NCBI GenBank assembly: GCA_005880175.1
Contig: VBJR01000261.1
Span: 1-15,163, forward strand
Length of the DNA: 15,163 nt
Reading direction: 5' to 3'
Source of the DNA: Chloroflexota bacterium
GTDB taxonomy: Bacteria > Chloroflexota > Dormibacteria > Dormibacterales > Dormibacteraceae
This document shows positions 1,127-8,837 of the stretch, one piece after another (the stretch's first letter is position 1; every line of letters begins with the position of its first letter). A program made the position numbers and the translations under genes. A model generated the notes under the pieces. That model was not told the origin of the DNA. It worked only from the letters and a program-made list of their open reading frames with translations, and searched no databases.

Positions 1127-1933
1127 TTACCGGGTCTGGTAGGTGATGAAGAAGAGGTATGCGATCAGCGCGATGAACACCCCGTACTCGATGATCACGT
1201 TGCGGCTGATCGACTCCTCGACCGTATGCCGGATGATGCCGCGGTTCACGTACCAGAGCAGGAACAGCATCACCGTGAACACGCCCTCCGGGAAGTAGAG
1301 GTACACGGTCATCGCCCAGGCGAAGAACGTCACGAGCTGGGCGACGAAGACCGAGAACAGGATGGCGCGCCGGGGCGTCATCGGGTTGCCGAACACGCGG
1401 AACGAGCGGTAGCTGCCCAGCAGCGAGATGATGAACACGCTGGCCAGGCTCAGCGGCAGCGCCAGGTGCAGCGCCAGGATGACCAGGAAGGAGCCGGCCA
1501 GGCCGAACGCCAGGAGGACCTCCTGGACGACCAGGTGGCTCGGCTTGAGGCGCTCCCTGATCTGCCGGTAGTCGAGGTGGGCGGCGAAGCAGAACCCGAT
1601 CCCGAACGCGCTGGTGATCAGGGAGTACTTCCACCACTCCGGCACCAGCAGGGACAGGCCCGCGACCGCCAGCGTGCCCAGGACCACGGGCACGAAGTGC
1701 TCGATGCTGGGCATTCCCGTGTCCGAGTGCAGGTAGCCCATCAGCGCCGGGGTCGCCAGCACGAGGAGACCCACGCCGAGGCCCCAGACCTGCGTCGGGC
1801 CCACCATCTCGGACTTGAAGCCCATGGAGATCGCCACCAGGATGATCCCCACGAAGATCAGGAAGCGCTTGTCTCGCTCGCTCCGGGCCTTCATGGAAGG
1901 CAACACGCGAGCCTCAGCGGGAGGCGTCTTCAC
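1127..1933 (-). CDS. polytopic membrane protein of unknown function
   Basis: I do not recognise the family. The 268-residue product has a short charged N-terminus (about 24 residues, ending SERDKR) and then eight or nine hydrophobic segments, roughly at residues 25-40, 49-68, 80-97, 103-120, 135-157, 159-178, 190-214, 217-234 and 246-265. Loops carry conserved-looking charged or aromatic runs such as LDYRQIRERLKPSH and SYRSFRVFGNPMTPRRA. There is no signal peptide, no ATP-binding motif and no obvious catalytic motif, so it is more likely a membrane channel, carrier or assembly protein than an enzyme. The GTG at 1933 is preferred because a TAAGAT -10 element sits exactly 9 nt upstream, fitting a leaderless mRNA. 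An internal ATG at 1894 is an alternative start that would remove 13 residues. It is the first gene of a probable two-gene unit with the AI-2E permease. Confidence 0.75.
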   Translation of the reverse strand: MKTPPAEARVLPSMKARSERDKRFLIFVGIILVAISMGFKSEMVGPTQVWGLGVGLLVLATPALMGYLHSDTGMPSIEHFVPVVLGTLAVAGLSLLVPEWWKYSLITSAFGIGFCFAAHLDYRQIRERLKPSHLVVQEVLLAFGLAGSFLVILALHLALPLSLASVFIISLLGSYRSFRVFGNPMTPRRAILFSVFVAQLVTFFAWAMTVYLYFPEGVFTVMLFLLWYVNRGIIRHTVEESISRNVIIEYGVFIALIAYLFFITYQTR

Positions 1934-3245: not shown

Positions 3246-3413
3246 GCCGGCAAATCTGGCTCTGGACGGGGATCAATAGCCTGATTCGCCGGCACATCCG
3301 GCTGTGGGCAGGGGTTCAGAGCCCCGTCCGCCAGCAAGCGGGGCTATCAGGGCCCATGTATGGCGCCGCTTGCCAGCAAGCGGGGCTATCGCCCCGCTCC
3401 CCACGCGCCTTGC
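3246..3413. repeat. four tandem units with exact 42-nt phasing
   Basis: Related 16-nt cores begin at 3246, 3288, 3330 and 3372, exactly 42 nt apart. They read GCCGGCAAATCTGGCT, GCCGGCACATCCGGCT and, twice, GCCAGCAAGCGGGGCT. All share GCC, GCA and GGCT at fixed positions and have inverted GCC/GGC ends. Units 1 and 2 match at 29 of 42 positions along their full length. Units 3 and 4 share a perfect 19-nt block (3330-3348 and 3372-3390) and little beyond it. A period of 42 nt equals four turns of B-form DNA, so all cores would face the same side of the helix. This fits an array of protein-binding sites or decayed tandem duplication. Confidence 0.6.
3366..3398 (+). promoter_or_regulatory. two overlapping, mutually exclusive hairpins
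   Basis: CCGCTTG (3366-3372) pairs perfectly with CAAGCGG (3377-3383) around a CCAG tetraloop. AGCGGGGC (3379-3386) pairs perfectly with GCCCCGCT (3391-3398) around a TATC tetraloop. The two stems share 3379-3383, so only one can form at a time. This arrangement is seen in attenuators, but there is no T run after the second stem and the next gene starts 240 nt downstream. The fold could equally be a by-product of the repeat array it lies in. Confidence 0.35.
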
Positions 3414-3638: not shown

Positions 3639-6600
3639 ATGGTCCCACGCTCCGAATCGGCAGCCTCGGGTCTCGCGGGCGTCCTCCACGGCCTCGTCGC
3701 GGACCTGCGCCGGGCCTCCGGCGCCGACATCGTCTCGCTCTACCTCTACGACGCCGCCGGCGAGCGCTACTACGCGCCGTTCGCGCTCGGGCAGCCGGAG
3801 GAGGGCCTGCTCGACTCGCTGAACGACCTCCAGGCCCAGCTCGGCCGCTACCTGGAGGACGCCGCCCAGCACAAGGCGCCGGACGACCTCGCCGTGCAGC
3901 AGTACGGGTCCACGGTGTGGCTGACGGTCGGCCGGCGCACGCTGGTCGCCCGCGACGCCCCCTCCGAGATCGACAGCACGTTCATCCGCCGCCACCAGGT
4001 GGAGTCCACCGTGGGCCTGCCCCTGCTGGCCGGGGACGACCTGGTCGGCCTCGTCTACCTGAACTACCGCGCGCGGGACCGGGCCCCCGACGCCGCCCGC
4101 GTCGCGGACCTGGAGCTGCAGGCGGCCGAGGCCGCGCGGGAGATCCAGGTCGCCCTGGCCATGGCCGAGCGGGCGGCCCTGGAGGGCGCCGCCCGCCTGA
4201 CGGCCCTGCTGACCGAGGCGGCCGAGGACGGCGGCGCCGACCGGGGCGCCCTCCGGCGCCGCCTGTCCATCGCGCTCGCCGAGCTCCTGCTGGCCAGCGA
4301 CCTCGACGCCGCCGCCGTCTACGCGGTCACCGCCGACCGCCACGCCGTCGAGCTGGTGACCGCCCACGCGCCCGCCGCCGCCCCAGCGCGCCTCGACCTG
4401 CCCGAGGACCGGGCCGGCCACGAGCCCGAGGTCACGGCCGGCGTGGCCGCCGCCATGGCGGACGCGGAGCTGCACCCGGCGGGGACGCACGCGCTGGGCG
4501 GGCCCGAGGAGCCGGTCGGCTACCTGGTCCTGTTCAGCCGCGACCCGCTCGCCGCGGTGCGCCGGGCCGGCGCCACGGACCTTCTCCTGCGCGCCGCGGC
4601 CGACCTGATCGGCGGCACGCTGGTCAGCCGCGACCGGATCGCGACCCTGGCCCGCGGCAACCGCCTGCTGGGCGCGCTCGCCGAGCTGGGCAGCGCAATG
4701 CTCCGCCCGGGGTCGTCGCGGCAGGAGGTGCTCGACGCGGTCGTGGCGCACCTGACCGACGCCGCCGTGCCCGAGTTCGACTTCCACTTCGCGACGGTGT
4801 ACCTGCTCGACGACGGCCCCGACGACACGCCCGTGGTGCGGATGGCGGCCGGCGCCAGCCCGAGCGAGGCGATCGCGTCCACCGTGGTCGCCGGCGGCCG
4901 GCCGGCCCCGGTGCGCGTGCCGCGCTGGGCCCTCGAGCAGGAGCGGGCGCTGGCCCCGGACGACGTGGTCGCGTTCGTCGCGCGCTCCCGGCAGGTGGTG
5001 CTGGTCGGACCGGCCATGCGCGGGCCGACCGCCGCCAACGGCGACCTGTTCGCCGGCGCCCTGCCCGAGGCCGCCCGCTGGCTGCAGGTGCCCGTGATCC
5101 GCGACGGCGCGGTGGTCCTGGCGGTGCCGGCCTGCCTGATCGGCGAGCCGGAGAACGGAGGCGCACCGGCCGTCGAGGGACCGCCGTTCACGCTCGCGGG
5201 CGACATCTTCGAGGCCGGCGGCCACGGCGAGCTCATCCGCCTGTTCCTGCCCGTCGGCCTGGACGGCGGCAGCCGGGCCACCGGCGTCCTGGAGGTCGGC
5301 TACCACCGGTCGTTCCAGCGCCGCCCCGACTGGGGCCAGGTGGAGGCGCTGCGCGCGGCCGCCGGGCAGGTGGCGATCGCGGTGGAGACCGCGCGGCTGT
5401 ACGAGGACGCCCGCCGCCACGCCGAGCAGCTGGAGCTGAGCGCGGACGTCAGCCGGGCGATCGCCTCGTCGATCGACCTGGAGCAGACCCTGCGGCTGGT
5501 GGCCCGCAACCTGGTCCGGCTGGTGGACGCGTCAACGTGCCAGATCGCGCTGTACGAGGAGGACGGCGAGGGCTGGTACGGCGCGGCGGCGGCCGACCAG
5601 GAGGAGCAGTGGCGGCGGCAGCGCGGGGAGCGCCAGGAGGGGTCGTTCCTGTTCGACGTGCTCGAACATGGTCAGCCCGTCGTGATCGAGGACACGGGCG
5701 CGAGCGAGCTCGCGGGGGGCGACTACGTGCGCACGTTCGGCGTCCGCGCCGTGCTCGCGCTCCCGCTGGAGGTCGGTGGCCAGACCATCGGGGCGGCCCT
5801 GCTGGCGCAGCGCGACCAGACGCGGACGTTCACGGCCGACGAGGTCCACCGCGCCCAGGGGCTGGCCCACCAGGCCGCCGTGGCGATCAAGAACGCCCGC
5901 CTCCACGCGCTGACGGAGGAGGAGCGGCACATCCAGAAGGACTTCGTCCTGGTCGGCTTCGGCCAGTGGGGCCAGCGGGCGTATCGCCACCTCCAGGTCC
6001 TCAAGCAGTTCTTCAACTTCCGGCTCCACGTCGTCGAGCGCGACGACGGCCACGGCGCCCGGAAGCGGCTGGCCGCCCGCGAGAGCGAGGTCCGCGACAA
6101 CGGCGACGCGTTCTACTGGGACGCGCCGGCCTCGCCCGCCGACCAGCAGCTGCGCCGGGAGCTGGAGCCGAGCTGCTACGCGATCACGTACATCGCGACG
6201 CCGGCCGCGACGCACCTCGCCACGCTGGCCCGCTACTACGACGTCAGCGACGTCGTGCTGATCGAGAAGCCGCTGGGCGCGCCGCCGGACGAGTACCGGA
6301 GCTTCCTGGACGGCGTCAGCGGCGGCGTGGAGCTGGTGGCCGCCGACCACTACTACTTCAAGCTGGAGGTTCGGCTGCTGCAGCTCCTGCTCACCGAGGA
6401 GCGGACGCTGCGCGACTTCCTGGACAGCGTCCAGGAGGTGTGCATCGAGATCCTGGAGGGGCAGACGCTGGCCGGCGCCGCCGCGGACATCGGCGTCGTC
6501 TCCGACTTGATGCCCCACGCGCTCGCCATCATCTCGCTGCTCACGCCGATCGACCGGCTGGAGCTCGACCCCGAGGCGCCGCTGCTGGTCGGCCGCCACG

Positions 6601-7055
6601 AGCCGGCGGCGAGCGAGCGGGAGACGTACGCCCGGCTGACCGCGACGTTCCCGTACCACGGCCGCCCGGTCCGGCTGGTGGTGGACGTCGGCAAGGGCGT
6701 GGAGGACGCCAAGTGGATCCGGCTCAGCGGCGAGCGGCGGGCGGCCGGGCGCAGCCCGTTCTACAAGTTCGACTTCGCGAAGGGGGAGGCGATCGACGGC
6801 ACCCAGTCCACCGTGCGGGCGGCGGTGCGCAAGATCCGCGAGCCCGGCGTGCCGGACAACGCGCACCTGACCATGCTGCGCCACGTGATCGAGAAGCGAC
6901 ACCCCGCGGTGGGCATCCTCTCGATCCGCGAGGCGATCCGGGCCAACCAGCGCATCCGGGAGCTGGAGGCGCTGGCGGCGGAGCTGATCGGGCGGGGCGA
7001 GTTCACGCCGTACCAGCCGGGCGCCCGTCCGGCGCTGGGCCGGCCGTCGCGCTGA
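3639..7055 (+). CDS. multi-GAF sensor protein fused to a G6PDH-like/Gfo-Idh-MocA-like oxidoreductase domain
   Basis: The product has 1138 residues counted from the ATG at 3639 (MVPRSESAASG). Codon bias and domain content begin there, although the frame stays open upstream to 3360. Four GAF-like sensor units can be outlined at about 15-180, 185-335, 340-595 and 600-765. The last is the clearest, running from SRAIASSIDLEQTLRLVARNLV through VRAVLALPLEVGGQTIGALL-like sequence to HQAAVAIKNARLHAL. A helical linker leads into a Rossmann domain with a perfect GxGxxG (VGFGQWG, G773/G775/G778). Next come EKPLG (K877), ADHYYFK (D903, H904, K908) and SDLMPH (H960). In glucose-6-phosphate dehydrogenase the matching motifs are EKPFG, DHYLGKE and the D..QNH catalytic histidine, so nearly all key residues have a counterpart. 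The domain is about 370 residues, shorter than a full G6PDH and closer to Gfo/Idh/MocA size. There is no membrane segment. The likely role is a cytoplasmic NAD(P)-linked sugar-phosphate oxidoreductase or sensor gated by a small ligand. Confidence 0.85.
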   Translation: MVPRSESAASGLAGVLHGLVADLRRASGADIVSLYLYDAAGERYYAPFALGQPEEGLLDSLNDLQAQLGRYLEDAAQHKAPDDLAVQQYGSTVWLTVGRRTLVARDAPSEIDSTFIRRHQVESTVGLPLLAGDDLVGLVYLNYRARDRAPDAARVADLELQAAEAAREIQVALAMAERAALEGAARLTALLTEAAEDGGADRGALRRRLSIALAELLLASDLDAAAVYAVTADRHAVELVTAHAPAAAPARLDLPEDRAGHEPEVTAGVAAAMADAELHPAGTHALGGPEEPVGYLVLFSRDPLAAVRRAGATDLLLRAAADLIGGTLVSRDRIATLARGNRLLGALAELGSAMLRPGSSRQEVLDAVVAHLTDAAVPEFDFHFATVYLLDDGPDDTPVVRMAAGASPSEAIASTVVAGGRPAPVRVPRWALEQERALAPDDVVAFVARSRQVVLVGPAMRGPTAANGDLFAGALPEAARWLQVPVIRDGAVVLAVPACLIGEPENGGAPAVEGPPFTLAGDIFEAGGHGELIRLFLPVGLDGGSRATGVLEVGYHRSFQRRPDWGQVEALRAAAGQVAIAVETARLYEDARRHAEQLELSADVSRAIASSIDLEQTLRLVARNLVRLVDASTCQIALYEEDGEGWYGAAAADQEEQWRRQRGERQEGSFLFDVLEHGQPVVIEDTGASELAGGDYVRTFGVRAVLALPLEVGGQTIGAALLAQRDQTRTFTADEVHRAQGLAHQAAVAIKNARLHALTEEERHIQKDFVLVGFGQWGQRAYRHLQVLKQFFNFRLHVVERDDGHGARKRLAARESEVRDNGDAFYWDAPASPADQQLRRELEPSCYAITYIATPAATHLATLARYYDVSDVVLIEKPLGAPPDEYRSFLDGVSGGVELVAADHYYFKLEVRLLQLLLTEERTLRDFLDSVQEVCIEILEGQTLAGAAADIGVVSDLMPHALAIISLLTPIDRLELDPEAPLLVGRHEPAASERETYARLTATFPYHGRPVRLVVDVGKGVEDAKWIRLSGERRAAGRSPFYKFDFAKGEAIDGTQSTVRAAVRKIREPGVPDNAHLTMLRHVIEKRHPAVGILSIREAIRANQRIRELEALAAELIGRGEFTPYQPGARPALGRPSR

Positions 7056-8787
7056 GCAGCCGCCGGGAGGGGTCGTACGGGAACAGGTCCATGATCTCGT
7101 GCCGGCGCACGCGGGCCTGGACCTCCTGCCAGAACGCCACCTGGCACAGCTCGCCGTGGCTCCGCTCCAGCACGTCGCGGAGCGGCGGCGGGAGGCCCAG
7201 GAAGCGGCTGAACTCCTCGGGGAACAGGTCGCGCGGCCCGACGCCGAACCACGCCTCGTCGGACAGGTCGTCGTCGTCGGTCGCCGCCTCGGGCAGACGC
7301 CGGAAGCTGAAGTCCGTGACCAGCCCCAGCTCGTCGTAGTCGTAGCAGACGACCCGTCCGTGCCGGGTCACCCCGAAGTTCTTGGGCAGCAGCTCGCCCG
7401 GGAAGATCCCGCTCGCGGCCAGGTCCTTGACCGCCTGGCCGAAGTCCACCACCGCCGCGGTGGCCGCCTGGTCCGGCGCCTGGCGCACGTGCAGGTCGAG
7501 CGGGGTGACGCGCCGCTCGACGTACGCGTGGTGGACGACCACCTCCTCGGGGCCCACGTCCACCGTCTGGTCGGCGTCGCGCAGGAACTCCTCCACCAGC
7601 CCCGGCTCGAACCGGGCCCGGTCGAACTGCAGGTGCTCGAACTCCTGCGCCTCGACCAGCCGGCCGGCGCGGTCGTGCCGGAACACCAGCCGGTAGCTCT
7701 CCCGGATGCTCCCGGGCGTCGTCGGCTTGATGGCCGGGAACCGGTCCCGGATCACCTTGAACACGACGTCGGAGCCCGGCATCGTGAACACGATCATCAC
7801 CATGCCGGGCGTGCCGGGCGCCAGCCGGAACCGCTCGTCGGTGTCGTGGAGGCGGTGCAGCAGGTCGCGGTACAGCTCCGTCTTGCCGTGCTTGTGGTGG
7901 CCGAGCGCGATGTACAGCTCCGCGATCGACTTGCGCGGCATCAGCAGCTTCAGCGTGCGCACCAGCCGGTACGGCGGGTCCACGTCCACGTGGAAGTGGG
8001 AGCGCGTGAAGCTGAACAGGATGCTGATGTCGTTCTCATCCGTCAGCACCGCGTCCACCACGATCCCGCACTCGGTGTTGAGCAGGGCCAGCGCGAACGG
8101 CACGAACCGCTCGCCCACGACCAGGCGGCCGAGCAGGTACGCGCCCTTGCGGCGGTAGAACGGCGCCTCGATCACCTCCGCGCGGTCGATTCGCTCCGGC
8201 AGGCCGGCCCGCTCGAGGTGGTCGGTCAGGCGCCCGGCGGCCAGGCGGGCGTCGCGGCGCAGGTCCTGGTAAGGCGCCTGGAGGCCGTCGTGGCGCAGGA
8301 TCGTCTCGACCAGCTCGGTCACGTCCGTCCGCAGCTCGTGCGCGTTGAACAGCAGGCTGCCGGCGTCCACCGGCGGCGTCTCGAAGTCGGAGTCCACGAA
8401 CTCGATGCCGCCGTCCACGCCGACCGTGGCGAAGATGCGGCGGGTCACCGAGTTGAAGAACGTCTCGGCCAGCTCCCAGTCGTCGCGGCGCGCGATCAGG
8501 CCGGAGTAGACGGCCTTGATGCTCGCCCACACGACCTTGTCGGTCACGCGGTCCGCCACCGTCTCGCGCACCACGCGCTCGACGCCGTCGATCACGCCGC
8601 CGTACATGTCGAGCCGCTCGGCGGCGTCGGCGAGCGCGCCCGCCCAGTCGCGGCGCGCGAACCGACCCGCCGCGCGCCGGCTGATCGCCCGGAACTCGTC
8701 GCGGTACGCCTCGAAGCCGACGAGCACCGCGTTGGCCGCCAGGTTGGCGACCCGGCTCGCCGAGAGGTCTCCCGCGCTCCGTGCCAT
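7003..8787 (-). CDS. aceK: isocitrate dehydrogenase kinase/phosphatase AceK
   Basis: AceK phosphorylates isocitrate dehydrogenase to divert carbon into the glyoxylate bypass and also reverses the reaction. The 594-residue product is close to the E. coli length (578) and aligns along its whole length. The N-terminal regulatory domain shows ELAETFFNSVTRRIF. The kinase-like domain shows APGTPGMVMIVFTMPGSDVV followed by FKVIRDRF (ATP lysine K344). Further on are AQEFEHL, FPGELLPKNFGVTRHGRVV, CYDYDE (D483, D485), then FPEEFSRFLGLP. Compared with E. coli as I recall it, Asp371 is Glu379 here, Asp457 is Glu465 and Glu439 is Val447. Lys336, Asn462, Asp475 and Asp477 are kept. I chose ATG 8787 because it matches the AceK N-terminus and has TACGCT exactly 9 nt upstream, a possible internal leaderless promoter. 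It lies 50 nt after the mutase gene, and its last 53 bp overlap the GAF gene tail to tail. No icd, aceA or aceB is in the window. Confidence 0.93.
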   Translation of the reverse strand: MARSAGDLSASRVANLAANAVLVGFEAYRDEFRAISRRAAGRFARRDWAGALADAAERLDMYGGVIDGVERVVRETVADRVTDKVVWASIKAVYSGLIARRDDWELAETFFNSVTRRIFATVGVDGGIEFVDSDFETPPVDAGSLLFNAHELRTDVTELVETILRHDGLQAPYQDLRRDARLAAGRLTDHLERAGLPERIDRAEVIEAPFYRRKGAYLLGRLVVGERFVPFALALLNTECGIVVDAVLTDENDISILFSFTRSHFHVDVDPPYRLVRTLKLLMPRKSIAELYIALGHHKHGKTELYRDLLHRLHDTDERFRLAPGTPGMVMIVFTMPGSDVVFKVIRDRFPAIKPTTPGSIRESYRLVFRHDRAGRLVEAQEFEHLQFDRARFEPGLVEEFLRDADQTVDVGPEEVVVHHAYVERRVTPLDLHVRQAPDQAATAAVVDFGQAVKDLAASGIFPGELLPKNFGVTRHGRVVCYDYDELGLVTDFSFRRLPEAATDDDDLSDEAWFGVGPRDLFPEEFSRFLGLPPPLRDVLERSHGELCQVAFWQEVQARVRRHEIMDLFPYDPSRRLLSATAGPAPDGRPAGTA

Positions 8788-8837
8788 CACCAGGTCAGCG
8801 TAGGCGATCGCGTTCGGCGTGCGTCTACGTGCGAACC

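Follow-up and report, generated by a model that had tools for sequence, protein, structure and literature searches.

The subject of this report is a fusion gene, located in a 15,163-nucleotide stretch of DNA (hereafter, the window) from a Chloroflexota bacterium of the Dormibacteraceae (assembly GCA_005880175.1, contig VBJR01000261.1), which joins an array of GAF sensor units to a dehydrogenase domain resembling glucose-6-phosphate dehydrogenase (G6PDH; Table 1). A sequence-only reading of the window had proposed one open frame containing approximately four GAF units and a Rossmann oxidoreductase, an architecture that is borne out by Pfam GAF matches, an AlphaFold model and relatives. An alternative, longer frame begins at position 3360; the start given in Table 1 is preferred because a relative in genome G001 aligns from residue 1 of its product and the predicted start at locus L001 yields a similar N-terminus. 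An NCBIfam scan of the fusion protein returned no model above its cut-off.

Table 1. Features of the GAF-dehydrogenase fusion gene, in window coordinates.
Feature	Position	Strand	Residues	Basis and remarks
GAF-array / G6PDH-like dehydrogenase fusion gene	3639..7055	+	1138 amino acids	Single open frame; relatives with the same fusion
GAF-like unit 1	3669..4088	+	~11-150	AlphaFold model; limits approximate
GAF-like unit 2, short	4242..4538	+	~202-300	AlphaFold model; limits approximate
GAF-like unit 3, with insert	4719..5306	+	~361-556	AlphaFold model; limits approximate
GAF unit 4	5475..5888	+	613-750	PF01590/PF13185 over cut-off, and model
Helix connecting GAF 4 to dehydrogenase	5835..5918	+	733-760	Model
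G6PDH-like dehydrogenase domain	5934..7052	+	766-1138	AlphaFold and Foldseek/VIA
GxGxxG dinucleotide-binding loop	5955..5972	+	773-778	Sequence
EKPLG with Lys877 (= G6PDH Lys148)	6264..6278	+	876-880	46/46 rows; aligned with 19/19 G6PDHs
DHYYFK: Asp903, His904, Tyr905, Lys908 (= G6PDH Asp177, His178, Tyr179, Lys182)	6345..6362	+	903-908	
D956-L-M-P-H960: Asp and general-base His (His960 = G6PDH His240)	6504..6518	+	956-960	46/46 rows

The Pfam GAF model PF01590 matched the protein at 88.5 bits (cut-off 22.4) in two stretches, the better of which covers the fourth unit. The full-length AlphaFold model, with secondary structure read by eye, contains four GAF-like units (the last at residues 614-725) joined by long helices, and the units outside the Pfam stretches come solely from this model. 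Tandem GAF structures of PDE5A, PDE2A and a cyanobacterial adenylyl cyclase appeared among its structural matches. These enzymes likewise carry tandem GAF units and long helices ahead of a catalytic domain, which the GAF units regulate. GAF arrays usually serve signaling, as front ends of signaling outputs, and the output in the PDE2/PDE5/adenylyl cyclase class is a cyclic-nucleotide enzyme, whereas that of the fusion is a metabolic-type dehydrogenase, with neither a kinase nor a transcription factor present.

The structural match of the C-terminal domain to the G6PDH fold (AlphaFold, Foldseek/VIA) spans the whole domain, and G6PDHs rank ahead of Gfo/Idh structures in both AlphaFold models; the structural comparison suggested by the sequence-only reading gave a predicted fold that is G6PDH/Gfo-like. 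All four active-site motifs that this reading had listed (GxGxxG, EKPLG, DHYYFK and D-x-x-x-H) are present in that order. Residues G773, G775, K877, D903, H904, Y905, K908, D956 and H960 are identical in 46 of 46 aligned proteins, and G778 in 45; these rows include the window protein and the N-terminally cut L038, and 19 of them come from loci retrieved through a motif scan (DHYYFK and EKPLG). A protein search that was not motif-led gave 109 proteins of at least 900 amino acids (the window protein included), each of which has all four motifs.

When 10 family members were aligned with 19 canonical G6PDHs from Chloroflexota, seven catalytic and phosphate-binding residues fell on the same invariant G6PDH residues, which agrees with the equivalences to Lys148, Asp177, His178, Lys182 and His240 proposed earlier; His960 of the dyad aligns with the G6PDH histidine through a one-residue gap, and Glu937 aligns likewise in 8 of the 10 family members and all 19 G6PDHs. 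Of 27 extracted G6PDH frames, eight lacked DHYxxK and were dropped to leave these 19; agreement at this motif is therefore partly due to selection, which does not apply to the lysine or to the Asp and His further along. In G6PDH, the EKP lysine touches both substrate and cofactor, Asp-His forms the catalytic dyad, and phosphate binding falls to the DHYxxK residues His, Tyr and Lys (PMC11448927, PMC9769727 and PMC6471386). The domain also contains the EKP lysine and Asp-x3-His arrangement of Gfo/Idh/MocA proteins (Lys877, Asp956, His960). An inositol dehydrogenase of the Gfo family has a K-D-H triad of Lys106, Asp191 and His195, with the same Asp-His spacing of four (PMC5969746). DHYxxK was absent from all 29 extracted Gfo/Idh/MocA frames, 18 of which had EKP. 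The combination of Asp-x3-His spacing with a G6PDH-type phosphate site is a hybrid feature, absent from the earlier note. Later-sheet substrate lysines of the G6PDH type, initially picked out by eye as a GK...K pattern (1019, 1025), were not borne out by alignment, and a similar pattern occurred in 5 of the 29 Gfo frames.

The strand-2 end carries an acidic residue at position 800 in 42 of 45 rows, position 801 is mixed, and no fixed arginine of the type that marks use of nicotinamide adenine dinucleotide phosphate (NADP) was found there. An acidic residue at this position in Rossmann folds points to NAD+, and the acidic residue 800 together with the lack of a fixed arginine suggests a preference for NAD+. 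NADP-type G6PDHs carry a strand-2 arginine, and some G6PDHs are without it (PMC9769727).

The fusion is widespread. Searching with the C-terminal region gave 457 proteins at E-values up to 0.001 among 7997 scored; of the best 120 of these, 105 are 1083-1214 amino acids long and the others shorter, all have GAF domains, and database names, where present, are mostly "GAF domain-containing protein". A scan of 84,980 species genomes yielded 41 loci; one of their contigs is binned as Acidobacteria, and the others bear the titles Chloroflexi, Dormibacteraeota/Dormiibacterota or Thermomicrobiales. In 40 of the 41 the GAF part lies ahead of the enzyme, and a contig end truncates the remaining locus. 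In genome samples that overlap with these loci, the fusion was found, always at one locus per genome, in 25 of 400 genomes of the phylum; in 33 of 110 genomes of the class of G001 as strong matches (31 of them in frames of at least 833 amino acids), with two more weak matches uncounted; and in 2 of 120 genomes of the class of G008, with eight more weak matches. The sequence-only reading had called for such a search, and the absence from relatives that would have argued against it did not materialize.

In the genomes searched for stand-alone kin, matches beyond the fusion reached only 16-23 bits, and the family edge is therefore sharp at this sensitivity. The full 765-residue array was seen only in the fusion (19 of 61 genomes, with up to 17 candidates per genome scored), and other proteins match it only from about residue 512 onward, around GAF 4. 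A free-standing dehydrogenase domain was not demonstrated among 116 listed proteins of 209-647 amino acids (e.g., P0126, P0122, P0133), many of which begin inside a GAF unit. Collectively, the sequence comparisons support strict coupling of array and enzyme. In a tree of 39 proteins, the window protein grouped on a long branch with Dormibacterota L001-L003 (support 100/98). The L010 copy, from an Acidobacteria-labeled genome, sits among Chloroflexota/Dormibacterota copies, likely through a binning error, or transfer.

In each of six pairs, the ratio of nonsynonymous to synonymous substitution rates (dN/dS) stayed below 0.12, with ranges of 0.02-0.09 in the enzyme and 0.04-0.11 in the array and the lower value in the enzyme for 4 of the 6; these ratios support the view that the fusion gene is under purifying selection. 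Eight genomes carry both the fusion and an ordinary G6PDH, and all 28 pairwise comparisons among them showed higher similarity for the dehydrogenase domain than for the genome's best-scoring ordinary G6PDH; given the shared ancestry of the pairs, these do not count as 28 independent tests. Mean identities were 81% for the dehydrogenase domain, 71% for ordinary G6PDH and 64% for the GAF part. The possibility that the fusion is the housekeeping G6PDH of the organism was ruled out in 16 genomes (the window's own not among them), each of which has an ordinary G6PDH, and none of the PF02781 matches listed in these genomes falls at the fusion gene. The fusion gene therefore probably has a role other than that of ordinary G6PDH.

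Neighboring genes were predicted with a home-made codon score and grouped into clusters; Pfam then supplied names for one member per cluster or for single neighbors. Glycosidases of glycoside hydrolase family 1 (GH1), GH2 or the GDE/MGH1-like type lie within the fetched flanks in 28 of 41 loci, with GH1 immediately upstream on the same strand in 14 and GDE/MGH1 immediately downstream in 18. The solute-binding protein and permease of a sugar-type ATP-binding cassette (ABC) transporter occur near the fusion in 16 and 15 of the 41 loci, respectively, and a family-4 glycosyltransferase in 14. The 16 genomes checked have only 1-6 GH1 matches (many genes being counted twice) and 0-3 GDE_N_bis matches, and with so few such genes, chance adjacency is unlikely. 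Elsewhere, GH15 lies downstream in L028 and L029 (followed by GH2 in L028), GH130 lies upstream in L034, and a transaldolase gene (L036:9182-10321, +) starts at most 20 bases downstream of the fusion on the same strand.

Sequence, alignment and predicted structure support the fusion, its fold, residue invariance, purifying selection, coupling and the sugar-gene neighborhood (in one clade); catalysis, its substrate, NAD+ preference and GAF gating are inferred. On balance, we favor a single-protein sensor-enzyme, a GAF-gated NAD-dependent sugar-6-phosphate dehydrogenase. The four GAF units would bind one or more small ligands, and the connecting helices would pass their state on, setting the activity of the C-terminal domain. 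This domain would use NAD to oxidize a sugar 6-phosphate, the simplest candidate reaction being glucose 6-phosphate to the lactone, in cells that may take up and hydrolyze glycosides.

Several observations weigh against this proposal. The domain shares with G6PDH (Zwf; PF00479/PF02781) the whole-domain fold and, in the same order, the EKPxG lysine, DHYxxK and the Asp/His dyad, yet differs in its acidic strand-2 end and its position behind four GAF units, as well as in three features that bear on its assignment. It comprises 373 residues, compared with 428 (8i37) and 485 (1dpg) in solved G6PDH chains; this difference of 55-112 residues agrees with the earlier claim of a shortened C-terminal domain, and the full-length β+α domain of G6PDH was not found. 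The window protein had no match to PF00479 or PF02781 at E-values up to 0.1, and the Asp956-His960 spacing is four rather than the five of the G6PDHs examined. The domain is G6PDH-like, though it is not classed as a G6PDH because it falls short in Pfam profile and length, and its substrate pocket may differ given these same two features. Alignment found no counterpart in the fusion domain for the later substrate lysine of G6PDH; the active-site segment 904-913 has a predicted local distance difference test (pLDDT) score below 50 in the full-length model; and the lead of G6PDHs over Gfo/Idh structures is modest, lower G6PDH rows tying with Gfo/Idh. In two of the six pairs, dN/dS was not lower for the enzyme half than for the array, and ordinary G6PDH scored over the cut-off in 16 of 16 genomes (in G014 as a piece at a contig end). 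As for the neighborhood, 25 of the 28 glycosidase loci belong to one clade of the tree, the others being L028, outside that clade, and two loci absent from the tree (L019 and L026). The arrangement is therefore mostly a single inherited one, with few independent events behind the association. Among named neighbors, which are part of all neighbors, no sugar gene was present in 10 of 41 loci (L001, L002, L003, L010, L031, L032, L033, L035, L038 and L039).

The presence of an ordinary G6PDH in every genome tested also bears on an alternative in which the dehydrogenase fold serves as a sensory or regulatory module instead of a working enzyme, binding sugar phosphate and NAD(H) and acting together with the GAF units to control a partner protein. 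Gal80 of yeast is a Gfo/Idh-fold protein with such a regulatory role, GAF arrays are usually found in signaling, and Pfam found no kinase, cyclase or DNA-binding domain in the window protein. We nevertheless regard this alternative as unlikely. Mere binding would not call for the invariance seen at Lys877, at the Asp903-His960 dyad and at the phosphate-binding residues, and no neighbor cluster is common to all contexts. An enzyme is favored over a pure sensor because of this invariance of catalytic residues.

A GAF-gated oxidoreductase of the Gfo/Idh/MocA type (PF01408), with a free sugar or glycoside as substrate instead of a sugar phosphate, appears less likely still. Such enzymes, e.g., inositol dehydrogenase, have GxGxxG, EKP, Asp-x3-His and a similar length in common with the fusion domain, and glycosidase neighbors would suit them. 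The window protein scored 16.2 bits in its C-terminal part against PF01408, below the cut-off of 24; among the fusions of four genomes, two passed (28.7 and 24.2), one fell under (21.3) and one was unmatched. A profile comparison using six G6PDHs and four Gfo proteins favored Gfo (91.8 versus 34.6 percent probability), whereas a second with 27 G6PDH and 29 Gfo extracted frames supported neither family (G6PDH 3.0, Gfo 1.1 percent); the outcome is thus unstable between runs, and some extracted frames are possibly wrong-frame readings. Gfo/Idh structures fall slightly behind G6PDHs in both models, the 29 Gfo frames lack DHYxxK, and Gfo/Idh/MocA C-terminal Pfam models did not match the window protein at E-values up to 0.1. 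A frame accident, misassembly or decaying gene is scarcely credible: stops or frame breaks do occur within the match in G211, G258, G397, G516, G317, L032 and P0212, but misassembly and frame accident are contradicted by the distribution (40 of 41 loci and 457 proteins matching the dehydrogenase region), and the low dN/dS in all six pairs is at odds with decay.

The sequence-only reading knew of no described enzyme in which GAF domains directly precede a sugar-phosphate dehydrogenase, and titles and abstract openings of the papers listed in searches of open-licence literature likewise contained no description of this fusion. In the accessible part of a review of G6PDH structure, the word "GAF" does not appear (PMC11448927). 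The same source describes G6PDH fused to 6-phosphogluconolactonase in H6PD, Plasmodium and Giardia; in these proteins the partner is the next enzyme of the pathway and not a sensor. The output of the present fusion is an oxidoreductase of the central-metabolism type, and in all pairs compared it was better conserved than the G6PDH of the same cell. If active, it would give a directly testable example, from uncultured bacteria, of sugar oxidation under ligand control; it might act as a modular switch of NADH production and could shed light on the relation between G6PDH and Gfo/Idh/MocA enzymes. It is conceivable, though doubtful, that the family represents a new class of one-protein metabolic sensor-enzyme, in which a compact G6PDH-like dehydrogenase is under the direct and obligate control of a four-GAF array, and signal ligands, not transcription or a kinase, switch sugar-phosphate oxidation. 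On the same tentative footing, the compact domain, combining a G6PDH phosphate site with Gfo/Idh catalytic spacing, may represent a surviving intermediate between these families.

Further features of the surroundings were observed. A cassette of sulfatase, sugar-type ABC transporter, GH1, GAF-dehydrogenase, GDE/MGH1-like glycosidase and family-4 glycosyltransferase recurs with varying completeness in the flanks of L005-L008, L014, L015, L018, L041 and others. A fumarylacetoacetate-hydrolase family gene is divergent from the fusion in two different lineages (L033:4158-5006, -; L036:4606-5406, -), and a small gene with a cyclic-nucleotide-binding domain lies directly 3' of it in L021 (9177-9569, +). 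In the window, the fusion is tail to tail with AceK (isocitrate dehydrogenase kinase/phosphatase), followed by phosphoglucomutase/phosphomannomutase and then a ManC-like nucleotidyltransferase. Eight window neighbor proteins that were compared, these included, do not recur in the 41 loci, barring a match at 27% identity to the solute-binding protein in L038. A function-unassigned protein at 1127-1933 (-) matches DUF5656 at 23.7 bits (cut-off 23.3). AceK (7003-8802, -) is over the cut-off for both of its Pfam domains and for NCBIfam; within the class of G001, six of the 110 genomes contain it, five of them together with the fusion.

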